The position numbers were made by a program, and so were the translations under genes. Source: Bacteroidota bacterium (lineage in GTDB: Bacteria; Bacteroidota; Bacteroidia; Chitinophagales; Saprospiraceae). From it: a stretch of DNA of 64,000 nucleotides. The notes below the pieces were generated by a model that was given only the letters and a program-made list of their open reading frames with translations, had not been told where the DNA came from and made no database searches. Position 1 is the first letter of the stretch; each line of letters starts with the position of its first letter. Positions 6,523-22,595 of the stretch are shown in pieces. Location of the stretch: contig JAAEZH010000029.1 in NCBI GenBank assembly GCA_018222965.1, positions 1 through 64,000 on the forward strand, read 5' to 3'.

Positions 6523-6740
6523 CGGCGAGTGGGCTGGTTGGTTAGTTAGCTGGTTTGTTGGTTTTGGCATCACTCAACTTTTTTTGTCTGAATCAGGATT
6601 TACAGAATTTCTCTCTATTTTCACCGCCAATACTTCCCTCCCCCTCCGAGGGAGGGACAGAGGGAGGGAGAAAAATATTGATCAATTAAAAATTAATAAC
6701 TAATTCTACATTCCCAGTTTTACATTTTACATTAATCCGT
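6523..6740. repeat. Intergenic spacer with G/T-rich tandem stretch and GGGAGG hairpin
   Basis: The stretch between the GT4 and MBOAT genes carries a G/T-rich run of GGTTGGTTAG/CTGGTTTGTTGG units (about 6533-6566). Around 6629-6670 there is a C-rich/G-rich palindrome (CTCCCCCTCCGAGGGAGGG plus GAGGGAGGGAG) that can fold into a stem. The rest is AT-rich. No small gene is convincing. The palindrome resembles the hairpin repeats seen elsewhere in the window and might act as a terminator for the gene to its left. Confidence 0.5.
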
Positions 6741-8163
6741 GCTTTTCAACTCCTTCATATTCCTCCTCTTTCTGCCGATAGTTTTTACCCTCTACTGGAG
6801 CGTATTTCGCCGGCATCTAAAAGCGCAAAACACTTTCTTGCTGATAGCGAGTTATGTGTTTTACGGCTGGTGGGATTATCGCTTTTTGGGGCTGATCTTG
6901 TTTAGTACTGTTGTTGATTTTGTCGTTGGGCAATCTTTGGCTTTCGCCGAAAGGCCAAAAAGGCGGAAAGCCCTTTTAGGTCTAAGCCTGGCGGTAAACC
7001 TCGGCCTGCTGGCTATCTTCAAGTATTACAATTTCTTTGTGGAAAGTTGGATTGATGCCTGGGCTATGTTTGGGATCGAAATGCAGGCAAGTACCTTAAA
7101 AATTATCCTGCCGGTAGGTATCTCTTTTTATACCTTCCAGACGCTTTCTTATTCTATTGATATTTACCGGAGAAAGCTTCAGCCGACAAAAAGCTTTATC
7201 AATTTTGCGGCTTTTGTCAGCTTTTTCCCGCAATTGGTTGCGGGGCCGATTGAGCGAGCTTCCAACTTATTGCCTCAAATAGAAAAGCCGCGTAAATTCA
7301 ATTATGATCAGGCGGTGGCCGGCTTGCGCCTGATTTTGTGGGGCCTGTTCAAAAAGGTAGTCATTGCCGATTCGCTGGCTCCTATGGTCGATGACATCTT
7401 CTCCAATTATGAAGCTTATCCGGGCTCTGTACTGGTATTGGGTGCTGTTTATTTTGCCTTCCAGATCTATTGTGATTTTAGCGGGTATTCCGACATCGCC
7501 ATTGGGGTTGCCAAGCTCTTTGGCGTGGAGTTGATGTCCAATTTCAAATTCCCCTATTTCTCCCGCGATATCGCCGAGTTCTGGCGGCGCTGGCACATTT
7601 CTCTGTCCACCTGGTTTCGGGATTATTTATACATTCCGATTGGCGGGTCCCGCGTAAATAAAGCCAAAGTCATCCGGAATGTATTTATCATCTTTCTGGT
7701 CAGTGGTTTTTGGCATGGCGCCAACTGGACTTTCATTTGGTGGGGAGGCATCCATGCAGCACTCTTTCTGCCGCTTCTGTTGTTGGAAAGAAACCGAAAG
7801 CATCGCGGGGAGATTGCCGCTCACGACAGGCTCCTCCCAAATCTCCGCGAATTATGGGGTATGGGCAGCACTTTTGTCATGGTCACCCTCGCCTGGGTTT
7901 TCTTCCGCGCCGAAAACATGACTCACGCGCTGGATTATCTTGCCAGTATCCCAAACGGGATCACACAAATACCCAACGTATTCCGATCCGGTCTTCCATA
8001 CATAGCAGCGCTCCTCCTTCTCGACTGGCACTTCCGCAAGGACGAGCGGAATATCCGCTTCTCAAAATACCAGTGGGTACGCTATGTTTTCTATACGGTT
8101 TTGCTCTTGTGTATTTTGTCTAATTTCTCTTCGGAGGAGTCGTTTATTTATTTTCAGTTTTGA
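6739..8163 (+). CDS. MBOAT family O-acyltransferase (474 aa)
   Basis: Polytopic membrane-bound O-acyltransferase of the AlgI/DltB type, which passes acetyl or other acyl groups across the inner membrane for O-acylation of an exported polysaccharide. The N-terminus MLFNSFIFLLFLP (GTG start at 6739) is the family norm. Also typical are FFPQLVAGPIERA, YCDFSGYSDIAIG, FWRRWHISLSTWFRDYLYIP and the invariant-His region FWHGANWTFIWWGGIHA (about 322-340). Its expected partner is the SGNH-like protein at 8918-9841, but a repeat cassette with a nuclease gene lies between them. The stop codon falls inside the left end of that cassette. Confidence 0.93.
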   Translation: MLFNSFIFLLFLPIVFTLYWSVFRRHLKAQNTFLLIASYVFYGWWDYRFLGLILFSTVVDFVVGQSLAFAERPKRRKALLGLSLAVNLGLLAIFKYYNFFVESWIDAWAMFGIEMQASTLKIILPVGISFYTFQTLSYSIDIYRRKLQPTKSFINFAAFVSFFPQLVAGPIERASNLLPQIEKPRKFNYDQAVAGLRLILWGLFKKVVIADSLAPMVDDIFSNYEAYPGSVLVLGAVYFAFQIYCDFSGYSDIAIGVAKLFGVELMSNFKFPYFSRDIAEFWRRWHISLSTWFRDYLYIPIGGSRVNKAKVIRNVFIIFLVSGFWHGANWTFIWWGGIHAALFLPLLLLERNRKHRGEIAAHDRLLPNLRELWGMGSTFVMVTLAWVFFRAENMTHALDYLASIPNGITQIPNVFRSGLPYIAALLLLDWHFRKDERNIRFSKYQWVRYVFYTVLLLCILSNFSSEESFIYFQF

Positions 8164-8881
8164 ACTCACCCCCTTGCCCCCTCTCTTGCAAAGAGAGGGG
8201 GAATGCATGCCATTTAAAAGGATATTATGTATTTTGTTGAATTGACATAATATACACGAATTATACCTCCCTTCTCTTCTTAAGAGAGTCCCGATAGCTA
8301 TTGGGAAGGGGGGAGTTTAAGAAGGTAGGTATTCCAAATGTACAGCCAAAAACACCACATCTACCAACTTGCCAGAAGTCTCCGTAAAAAACAAACAGCG
8401 GCGGAAAGTTTTTTTTGGCAAAAAGTTCGAAATCGAAGTTTTCAGGGATTAAAATTTACCCGACAATTTGTAGTGGAGCACGCAGAGGTTTTGGGTCAGA
8501 AGTCATATTATATAGCAGACTTTCACTGTCATGCGAAAAAGCTTATTATTGAAATTGACGGAGATATTCACGATCAGCAAAAAGATTATGACCAAATGCG
8601 AGAAGAAGGCTTAAAGGGAATGGGGTTCAATGTATTACGGTTTACTAATGAGCAGATCCTTTTTCATTGGAATGAAGTGGAAAAAGAACTATTGAATTTT
8701 ATCGAGCATTATCAGAAATAGGACTCCTGGTCTGGAAGTTAAGTTCCCCTGTTTTCCCAAGAGAGCTCCGACAGCTATCGGAAAGGAGTGAGCAAGAATA
8801 CTACCTGCACACAAAAATATCCTTTAGTACACGAATTAAATTCCCCTCTCTTCTTAAGAGAGGGGTTAGGGGTGAGTTCAA
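8160..8881. mobile_element. Putative DUF559 cassette with 13-bp terminal inverted repeats
   Basis: The segment begins TTGAACTCACCCC (8160-8172) and ends with its exact reverse complement (8869-8881). Both ends continue as ~45-base imperfect inverted repeats that hold a CCCCTCTCTT...AAGAGAGGGG hairpin. Two further related units lie inside, at 8253-8320 and about 8743-8800. They carry CTTCTTAAGAGAG or CCAAGAGAGC followed by a CGATAGCTAT-type palindrome. The only gene is the DUF559 nuclease. The cassette separates an MBOAT gene from its SGNH partner and supplies the MBOAT stop codon. No transposase or clear target duplication is visible; mobility is inferred from ends and position. Confidence 0.6.
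8338..8721 (+). CDS. DUF559 endonuclease-domain protein (127 aa)
   Basis: Small protein of the DUF559 family, related to very-short-patch-repair (Vsr) endonucleases of the PD-(D/E)XK fold. It reads LARSLRKKQTAAESFFWQKV, then RSFQGLKFTRQ, YIADFHCHAKKLIIEIDGD with the acidic active-site region D-x-IEID, and HDQQKDYDQMREEGLKG then VLRFTNEQI. All parts of the usual ~120-residue domain are present. It is enclosed by inverted repeats and is unrelated in function to the polysaccharide genes around it. It may act in mobilisation or upkeep of the repeat cassette, as RAYT proteins do for REP elements; that role is inference. Confidence 0.85.
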   Translation: MYSQKHHIYQLARSLRKKQTAAESFFWQKVRNRSFQGLKFTRQFVVEHAEVLGQKSYYIADFHCHAKKLIIEIDGDIHDQQKDYDQMREEGLKGMGFNVLRFTNEQILFHWNEVEKELLNFIEHYQK

Positions 8882-8917
8882 GCCCCGGAACTCCCCAACT
8901 CAAACAATCACAAACTC

Positions 8918-9841
8918 ATGCCTACCCTCCTAAAAAACCTCCTAAAATTTACCCTCTTTTTTGTGGGAGCGTTTATTGCCCTGAGCATCTGGGCGAGCTA
9001 TAACCGCAATTTGGAGAAAAAGGTATTTGGTACGCCTTCCTTTCATGGAGCGACGGTGTATCGTATGCCCGACCTTGCTGACTGGGCTTACGCCGAAAGG
9101 GCTAAAAAGAAAATACTGTTTCTGGGGCCGAGTACTTTGTACCGGGGAGTGGCTCCGTATGTGCTCAATGACGATGAAATTAGTGTTTTCAATGGCGGCT
9201 CATCGGGGCAGCGGATTATGAACTCCTACTTCCTGCTAAAATATGTTTTGGAACGGGGAGAGATTGATATGCTGGTGCTGGATGTGTTTCCGCGCTTGTG
9301 GACGGGCAGTAAAGGGGTGGAATCTGCCCGGGATCACATTCTCAATAATCCGGAGTATCCGGCGAAAGCTTTTGGAGAGATGGCCTGGGCCTCGGAGGAT
9401 GTGCGCAACTTGTTTTTGGGTGCCTTTTATGCTGTAAAAAGAGGCTTGTTGGGGCGGAATGAGATACAGGTCACACCAGCAAAAGAAGACGATTATCGGG
9501 GCGATGGCTTTATTTATACCCTCGATTCAAAAGAAAGAAAATCTGTGGATGTACGCAGCGATACCGCTTCTTTTAGCTTTCGCGAAAAGCGATACTTTAA
9601 GAAAGTACAAAGACTGTGTGCCGAAAAAGAAATAAAGCTGATCGTGCTTATCCCGCCGGAAGTGCAACCCACTCCCTTTGTTTTGCCTTTAATTATGGAT
9701 GCTTCTAATATTTTGAATGCCCAGGAAGCTGTCCCGGATTCCAGCCTTTTTTACGACAACCACCATTTATATGGCCGGGGCGCGGAGTATTTTAGCAACT
9801 GGTTGAAGCCGCGAATTAAAACCGTATTTAATACGCAATGA
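8918..9841 (+). CDS. SGNH-like acyltransferase partner of MBOAT (307 aa)
   Basis: Membrane-anchored protein with one N-terminal helix (residues ~8-26), a periplasmic domain and SGNH/GDSL-like signatures: GPSTLYRG at 70-77 with the putative nucleophile Ser, NGGSSGQR as a second block, and D280-x-x-H283 in YDNHHLYGRG. This is the arrangement of DltD/AlgJ-type proteins that receive acyl groups from an MBOAT protein and pass them to a glycan. The MBOAT gene lies just upstream beyond the DUF559 cassette. The stop overlaps the next gene's ATG (ATGA). I recognise the fold pattern, not an exact named protein. Confidence 0.7.
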   Translation: MPTLLKNLLKFTLFFVGAFIALSIWASYNRNLEKKVFGTPSFHGATVYRMPDLADWAYAERAKKKILFLGPSTLYRGVAPYVLNDDEISVFNGGSSGQRIMNSYFLLKYVLERGEIDMLVLDVFPRLWTGSKGVESARDHILNNPEYPAKAFGEMAWASEDVRNLFLGAFYAVKRGLLGRNEIQVTPAKEDDYRGDGFIYTLDSKERKSVDVRSDTASFSFREKRYFKKVQRLCAEKEIKLIVLIPPEVQPTPFVLPLIMDASNILNAQEAVPDSSLFYDNHHLYGRGAEYFSNWLKPRIKTVFNTQ

Positions 9842-12361: not shown

Positions 12362-12549
12362 AGTACCTGGACATAATTGATGATATAAAATGACCCGAAA
12401 GATTTTTGGTCTAATCGAGGCAAGCCCGGAGCCTGATCCCGATAGCTATCGGGATAGCTATCGGGATAGCTATCAAGGCGAGGACTCAACAAAGAGTAGG
12501 GCAAAAAGATTCAGTCATTTATTATTAATTAATACTGTCCAGGTACTTA
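12360..12549. repeat. MITE-like palindromic element, copy 1 (190 bp)
   Basis: Ends TAAGTACCTGGACA and TGTCCAGGTACTTA are perfect 14-base inverted repeats. Complementarity continues imperfectly inward (ATTGATGATATAAAATGAC against GTCATTTATTATTAATTAAT). A second copy lies at 25409-25574. This copy differs mainly in its apical part, where GATAGCTATCGG occurs three times in tandem. The element carries no gene and looks like a non-autonomous insertion that can fold into one long hairpin. It separates a terminator from gmd and may affect gmd expression. Confidence 0.75.
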
Positions 12550-22262: not shown

Positions 22263-22595
22263 GAGGGGGAGTCGCCTCGTACCTCCTGCGTCGGTCCTCG
22301 GCCGGGGAGCTCATCGCCTTCGGCTATAAGGGGGAGTTGCTTACCTGCCTGCGCCTTTGGCTCCGGCAGATGTTGCGGGGAGAGAATCTTATATTGATTA
22401 GAAGTCTTCGTTTAATTGCTCGCCCCGGGGCGAGCAGAAATAGCAGCTATTTTCTCCAAAGGAAAAGCCTCTCCCCGCAAGGATGCAACGCAGGAGCAGA
22501 CGCGCAACTCCCCAGATACGCAAGAGCGTATCGCTCCCCCGACGACTTTCGCAGGAGGCGATCCCGATAGTAATCGGGAGGAGAACTCCCCCCTC
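22263..22595. repeat. Multi-hairpin repeat element, copy A (333 bp)
   Basis: Palindrome-rich element bounded by GAGGGGGAGT and ACTCCCCCC. G-rich boxes on the left pair in order with C-rich boxes on the right. GGGGGAGTTGC at 22330 pairs with GCAACTCCCC at 22504, and TTGCGGGGAGAG at 22373 pairs with CTCTCCCCGCAA at 22469. Local hairpins sit between the boxes, including GCTCGCCCCGGGGCGAGC at the centre and CCCGATAGTAATCGGG near the right end. Copies at 28091-28292 and 40176-40477 share layout and many bases. An open frame across it (22337-22570) reads through the repeat and I do not regard it as a gene. Confidence 0.72.

Follow-up and report, generated by a model that had tools for sequence, protein, structure and literature searches.

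The 64,000-nucleotide stretch of DNA analysed here (the window; contig JAAEZH010000029.1, positions 1 to 64,000, from a Bacteroidota bacterium of the Saprospiraceae) contains a 722-bp segment, positions 8160-8881, in which inverted arms enclose a single gene of the DUF559 family (Table 1). At both extremities the 13-bp tip TTGAACTCACCCC is found exactly, at 8160-8172 on the + strand and at 8869-8881 on the − strand. The outer arms (8160-8198 and 8843-8881) are 72% complementary when compared ungapped, and each contains a perfect CCCCTCTCTT/AAGAGAGGGG hairpin; two inner repeats, related to each other, lie between them and the gene. The original prediction, made from the sequence alone, had described exact ends, imperfect outer repeats with hairpins, two inner repeats, one DUF559 gene and an MBOAT stop codon inside the left end, and each of these features was confirmed, the gene product matching PF04480 with 107.7 bits (cut-off 20.6; E 3.7e-31).

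Read outward, each end consists of a hairpin, a short linker and a third block, the right end being CCCCTCTCTT CTT AAGAGAGGGG TTA GGGGTGAGTT. The third block of the right end fits antiparallel to the purine strand of the hairpin, following the G·G and T/A·A triplet rule at 10 positions, and that of the left end obeys the same rule over 11 positions with at most one mismatch allowed. A strict finder places intrastrand triplex motifs (TMs) at 8163-8201 (− strand) and 8843-8878 (+ strand), and both arms have the make-up of the BoxC/PIT/TM repeats, a Y-R hairpin plus a third strand with G·G and A/T·A triplets. By its sequence the 13-bp tip is the third strand of a putative TM of 10-11 triplets and not a separate signal. 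Intrastrand triplex motifs have been described from E. coli and from over 260 bacteria, and TM_ECO oligonucleotides are reported to form a triplex in solution; the same paper states that a mobility function was not found near the E. coli motifs (PMC4666352). The triplex repeat class is already known, but without a mobiliser; this limits the proposal of an undescribed class of nuclease-driven repeat element, which is otherwise supported.

Table 1. Features of the DUF559 element and its neighbours in the window.
Feature	Position	Strand	Description
Left terminal arm	8160..8201	-	Head TTGAACTCACCCC 8160-8172 and hairpin CCCCTCTCTTGCAAAGAGAGGGG 8178-8200; contains MBOAT stop TGA 8161-8163; read on -, Y-R-third-strand triplex motif of 11 triplets
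Inner left repeat	8262..8320		Broken by palindrome CCGATAGCTATTGG 8291-8304; probably a decayed arm of the terminal-arm kind
DUF559 (PF04480) nuclease gene	8338..8721	+	127 aa; predicted Vsr / I-Bth0305I fold
Inner right repeat	8739..8795		75% like inner left repeat over 48 nt; palindrome CCGACAGCTATCGG 8768-8781
Right terminal arm	8843..8881	+	Hairpin CCCCTCTCTTCTTAAGAGAGGGG 8843-8865, loop TTA, third strand GGGGTGAGTT, tip ending GAGTTCAA; 10 triplets
MBOAT O-acyltransferase gene	6739..8163	+	Stop codon provided by element tip
Partner gene	8918..9841	+	Downstream of element; "SGNH" in the original prediction; no Pfam match up to E 0.1

In the 5.48-Mb genome to which the window belongs (G000, 105 contigs) the exact tip occurs seven times and the exact palindrome eight times, versus none for the reversed patterns. 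Two of the seven tips (C26 and C32:7621) have no adjoining TM and look like chance matches, and with up to two mismatches allowed the tip alone is no rarity in the window (4 seen versus 1.4 expected). Identity of the element with a known RNA family was dropped, since no Rfam family matches window positions 7900-9100 up to E 1; the same scan found no intron there. The palindrome CCGATAGCTATCGG is nested in both inner repeats (8291-8304, 8768-8781) and recurs in the window at 12439-12464 and 22564-22577; with up to two mismatches it gives five window matches versus 0.14 expected, and it is also present at C22 and next to the second DUF559 gene of the genome (C97).

The gene product is predicted to be a single-domain nuclease of the PD-(D/E)XK/Vsr fold. 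Its AlphaFold2 model (pLDDT 91) matches NGO0050 (PDB 3HRL; Z 15.1, with E 1.1e-14 at the sequence level), the homing endonuclease I-Bth0305I (Z 11.6, 94 residues) and Vsr (1cw0; Z 10.1, 2.5 Å over 99 residues). Among 45 sequences there are 12 invariant columns, R16, T20, E23, D61, E72, D74 and D85 being among them, and H78 is conserved in at least 90%. The relation of the E. coli family member YcjD to Vsr was remarked in 2005 (PMC1189080), and Caulobacter VsrA, which carries DUF559, has a functional link to a cytosine methyltransferase (PMC12907096).

G221, a same-genus genome in which no DUF559 was found, has the MBOAT stop codon TAG overlapping the apparent GTG start of the partner gene with nothing between them; in the window the MBOAT frame terminates at the TGA supplied by the element tip. 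The comparison shows that the unit was inserted at the MBOAT/partner junction, and it bears out the prediction that the DUF559 cassette splits genes that normally form a pair. Two Deinococcus genomes differ in a related way. D. proteolyticus has a 4-bp overlap of hpaE with an NAD(P)-dependent oxidoreductase gene, two genes that are kept apart in Deinococcus sp. NW-56 by a DUF559 gene; the DUF559 gene of D. proteolyticus sits between that oxidoreductase gene and hpaB, a position occupied in NW-56 by a VOC gene. No clean empty site was seen in the Sinorhizobium records.

The arrangement recurs around other DUF559 genes. PF04480 is present in 87 of the 198 genomes sampled from the order, Chitinophagales. 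From the profile-search listing 84 places with short DUF559 frames were hand-picked, several at contig ends and unlisted ones being excluded; some are neighbouring DUF559 genes at one locus. Left and right flanks were scored as inverted repeats at 82 of these places, two with less than 100 bp of flank being dropped, and compared with 1403 control intervals in the same loci. The median score was 40 for DUF559 versus 20 for the control intervals, and 54 of the 82 loci reached at least the control 99th percentile (p 2e-29). With the window included, 47 of 85 loci have a TM within 450 bp, 55 an inverted-repeat score of at least 30, and 72 one or the other. A total of 105 TMs fall within 500 bp of the gene, and each further 500-bp bin holds 0 to 5; near and far densities are 1.43 versus 0.040 per kb in one count and 2.52 versus 0.051 in another. 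Coding-density bias as the cause of this clustering was dropped, since the excess persists per intergenic kb: 3.54 within 450 bp versus 0.28 beyond 1 kb (12.7-fold), TMs at any position being divided by intergenic bases.

Beyond the order, a set of 80 named loci was reduced to 72 by removing 8 that repeated the order sample, and to 68 for repeat scoring by removing 4 with short flanks. Of these, 37 of 68 reach at least the control 99th percentile for inverted repeats (p 8e-19), and TMs are near 61 of 72, on both sides in 39. TMs flank DUF559 at 3/3 loci of Cyanobacteria, 5/6 of Chloroflexota and 3/3 of Spirochaetota, and at single loci of KSB1, Saccharibacteria, Firmicutes, Aminicenantes and Saganbacteria; none was seen at single loci of Brocadia, Magasanikbacteria and Neomarinimicrobiota. 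A plasmid collection gave 34 records with a DUF559 match, and TMs are near the gene at 8 of the 10 loci examined. The exceptions are D. proteolyticus and Sinorhizobium C101, where the strict finder gives no TM; the Deinococcus locus nevertheless has strong inverted repeats (score 98).

We consider it probable that these are mobile triplex-repeat elements driven by a homing-endonuclease-like DUF559 nuclease, the window segment being one of them. A different possibility is that DUF559 is cargo that lands in, or recombines between, resident repeats spread by another agent, much as ISPpu9 inserts in REPs (available part of PMC8450116); the existence of some TM-rich genomes without DUF559 would agree with this. 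Landing in resident repeats predicts flanks shared by genome, and the flanks behave in the opposite manner, being shared by protein lineage. In a comparison made outside reading frames, with three syntenic pairs removed, the median flank score is 53 for 29 non-syntenic pairs of similar DUF559s (protein similarity at least 0.6) from different genomes, 83% of which reach 33. For 59 pairs made up of dissimilar DUF559s from a single genome the median is 22, and 7% of these pairs reach 33. When only one side is compared with the inverted other side, the proportions are 52% versus 5%. Between genomes, protein similarity predicts flank similarity (rho 0.23, a value as high in 0 of 499 permutations), although locus pairs are not independent and p values are only a rough guide. 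At a distance of 0.7-4 kb, similarity is absent in 22 of the 25 closest pairs, and the remaining three are syntenic. The comparison shows that DUF559 lineages have cognate arms of their own, the arms following the protein and not the genome. Since the in-frame cassettes described below also bring their own arms, the cargo explanation seems unlikely to us. The idea that the repeats never move with the gene, which would speak against an element of this kind, is at odds with the 83% versus 7%; the same figures, together with the arms at 72 of 85 loci, support the predicted REP/RAYT-like arrangement in which a nuclease replaces the Y1 transposase.

The arms also occur without the gene. In the genome of the window two inverted TM dimers with heads outward are gene-free, C32:4857-5006 (150 bp) and C46:53696-53860 (165 bp), and a third, C22:572-680 (109 bp), has one decayed arm; a solo TM lies at C77, and other copies are cut by contig ends or N. 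Such dimers are dispersed, as gene-free copies are in REP/RAYT systems. In two Sinorhizobium records (L295, C101; L294, K101) a dimer lies downstream of DUF559, its arms similar to those in S. meliloti Ak57 and its spacer different, as if dimers swapped at the same position.

DUF559 cassettes are also found in frame within housekeeping genes. A search of frames of at least 487 aa returned 22 loci, of which 19 could be read and 3 are cut by contig ends; a TM lies within 450 bp at 16 of the 19, and every TM counted is inside the same open frame. TM-DUF559-TM cassettes occur in leuS, ileS, uvrA, metH, mnmE and DEXH helicase genes (L011-L040). Hosts of nine frames were assigned by NCBIfam and Pfam: leucine-tRNA ligase (three frames, two sites), isoleucine-tRNA ligase, UvrA, methionine synthase (two sites), MnmE and a ligase-associated DEXH helicase, the helicase frame and one methionine synthase frame being partial and under the NCBIfam cut-off; the remaining leuS and ileS frames were assigned by conserved motifs. 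With the strict finder no TM was detected in two of three ileS frames and one of two metH frames. The hairpins of in-frame cassettes translate as linker peptides, for instance LTPSPSPKERG. For leuS, 60 genomes were searched and 30 loci fetched, 22 of them readable and 8 not; the loop before TTRPDT has 16-26 residues in 21 of the 22, and 181 residues with two TMs in the other one (G030). Here too, as at the MBOAT junction, the same site is empty in relatives. In a tree of 100 DUF559 sequences those within genes fall into two leaf runs with intermingled host genes, and the in-gene and standalone states are separated by 3 parsimony changes; the ileS clade has a support of 0.99, the only one inspected. 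The tree is taken as a sign that cassettes have moved between genes.

These cassettes bear on a further explanation, in which DUF559 serves the host as a Vsr-like repair or structure-specific nuclease processing TM DNA and the pair is kept for repair and not for spread, TMs near the gene regulating it or stopping transcription. Hairpins can terminate transcription, the fold is that of Vsr, and Caulobacter VsrA, with its functional link to a methyltransferase, provides a related case (available part of PMC12907096). A host function fits poorly with the patchy distribution of the gene (87/198 genomes), the empty site in G221, the gene-free dimers at other loci, the in-frame insertion in unrelated genes and the co-variation of arms and protein, and we regard it as improbable.

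Among the gene families compared, the association with TMs is confined to DUF559. In a first control set, limited to loci with full flanks and, for GIY-YIG, a short frame too (18 of 30 Y1 and 17 of 30 GIY-YIG loci used), a TM was found within 450 bp at 0/18 Y1_Tnp and 0/17 standalone GIY-YIG loci; none was near 30 Y1 loci with rougher coordinates or within 450 bp of 40 GIY-YIG loci, a set overlapping the 17. The notion that any small nuclease gene has TM flanks was dropped on the 0/40 for GIY-YIG. At the level of genomes, the excess of a generic TM pattern over its reversed control, overlapping matches being counted separately, has a median of 5 in the 87 genomes with DUF559 versus 0 in the 111 without (p 1.6e-11). 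When DUF559 status was permuted within families, using 190 of the 198 genomes and excluding 8 that are alone in their family, the observed statistic was reached 0 times in 20,000. That Y1/RAYT transposases of the same genomes move the repeats, DUF559 being incidental, is very improbable: RAYT-type genes (PF01797) are found in 153 of the 198 genomes, that of the window included, and TM excess correlates weakly with Y1 number (Spearman 0.29, versus 0.54 with DUF559 number, 198 genomes), but the rank regression coefficient is 0.05 for Y1 versus 0.56 for DUF559 count, no TM adjoins the 18 Y1 loci and the cassette has no Y1 gene.

E. coli K-12 has both a DUF559 gene, ycjD (b1289), and BoxC, and ycjD adjoins TM_ECO no. 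9 (1,351,239-1,351,204) in Table 1 of PMC4666352. Among 5426 complete genomes, 3364 contain at least 80% of a query made up of ycjD and the repeats downstream of it. In 60 records drawn evenly down the ranking of this query, BoxC places number 12-27 in the 37 with ycjD (median 19, counting the ycjD locus) and 1-18 in the 23 without it (median 4); BoxC number thus tracks ycjD, as a correlation in which lineage is still a confounder. Three dimers of MG1655 are polymorphic: SE11 and Z1323HEC0355 lack a 186-bp block at fepB-entC, E28 lacks 207 bp at ygfF-gcvP, and E50 and an ST131 strain lack 76 bp at alx-sstT. The alx-sstT difference looks like a deletion between two CCCTCTCCC copies and not an insertion. 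Three strains without ycjD have MFS and outer-membrane efflux genes after sapF, with no clean empty site.

For the elements driven by DUF559 we propose the following mechanism. The nuclease would recognise the arm cognate to it, which may then be folded single-stranded DNA or a cruciform or triplex, and would nick or cut both the third-strand tip and the target DNA. Host repair would then copy or join the arm-bounded DNA into the break, in the way a homing endonuclease spreads its own gene, and gene-free dimers would depend on the enzyme in trans, in the manner proposed for REPINs and RAYTs. The mobility of the element is well supported by comparison, and we infer that DUF559 acts on the arms. 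Break-repair copying would be favoured over transposase chemistry because there are no clear target duplications and the fold is that of a homing endonuclease.

Several observations weigh against the reading of DUF559 as driver of the repeats. Nine genomes without DUF559 have a TM excess of at least 8 (G146, G150, G104, G164, G079, G147, G158, G108 and G142), for which gene loss, missing contigs or another mobiliser are possible reasons, and 21 genomes with DUF559 have no TM excess; the wide occurrence of RAYT-type genes given above belongs here too. At the thresholds applied, 13 of the 85 DUF559 loci lack both TMs and inverted repeats. The second DUF559 gene of the window's own genome (C97) has no arms by the inverted-repeat score (20). 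Arm orientation is mixed, 44 outward and 64 inward in one count and 94 and 62 in another, and strict heads-outward orientation was dropped as a general rule. BoxC lies only on the downstream side of ycjD, and the E. coli dimers read face inward. In the window the empty site does not account for some 36 bp (8882-8917) that separate the right tip from the partner ATG. The search for target duplications, which the original prediction had suggested, yielded none that is clear, the sole candidate being a possible TAA at fepB-entC in E. coli.

Among known systems, BoxC/PIT/TM repeats resemble those of the window in hairpin plus third strand, dispersal and occasional inverted dimers. They differ in that the window-type repeats flank and co-vary with DUF559, the published description of BoxC/PIT/TM giving no associated mobility gene (PMC4666352); the window sequence differs from BoxC/TM_ECO by its CCCCTCTCTT stem and GGGGTGAGTT third strand. 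REP/REPIN-RAYT systems (REPtron) share palindromic repeats around one short gene, gene-free inverted dimers that are dispersed, and lineage-specific repeats. Unlike RAYT units, the DUF559 cassette has a nuclease as its sole gene and not an HUH/Y1 transposase, and unlike REPs its repeats bear no GTAG or CGTC tag, the third-strand head at the TTGAACTCACCCC tips replacing the tetranucleotide. I-Bth0305I, a Vsr-like homing endonuclease, is the closest characterised enzyme by fold, and such enzymes share with DUF559 cassettes the selfish insertion into conserved genes; the window element differs from it in having no detectable intron, dispersed repeats as borders and many different target sites. 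Rickettsia palindromic elements are likewise inserted in frame in protein genes and are not known to carry a nuclease gene. NGO0050 and Caulobacter VsrA belong to the same protein family, with no link to repeats in the portions of the literature consulted; among the matches listed, mostly titles and abstracts, no published link of DUF559 to these repeats was found.

A parallel may exist for another nuclease. Flanking inverted repeats reach at least the control 99th percentile at 15 of 40 standalone GIY-YIG loci of the order (L356-L395; p 2.5e-4). These repeats are of another kind, many being headed GTCAT (GTGTCATGGTGAGC, GTCATCCTGAGCCTGTCGAAGG, TGTCATTTCGACG, CGTCATTCC). Their half-motif is ten times as dense around the gene, and 3 of 84 DUF559 loci have it nearby; this enrichment is not an independent test, because the motif was written after the arms of some of the same loci were known. 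GIY-YIG and the GTCAT-headed repeats are possibly a second nuclease-repeat pair, perhaps related to the CGTC REPs of PMC3733652. More broadly, we see about even chances that single-domain nucleases are the missing mobilisers of transposase-less palindromic repeats, DUF559 for BoxC/TM and GIY-YIG for the GTCAT-headed ones, with some DUF559 lineages being in-frame specialists in loops of essential proteins, intein-like without known splicing.

How the triplex repeats BoxC, PIT and TM spread has been an open question. If the relation proposed here is correct, a cognate nuclease would account for both their spread and their variation, and the DUF559 family, YcjD of E. coli included, would gain a function. 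It would also mean that there are mobile elements whose sole enzyme is a homing-type nuclease, with no transposase, recombinase or reverse transcriptase. Moreover, in-frame insertion in tRNA synthetases and repair genes would be a second route, beside inteins, for selfish DNA into essential proteins.

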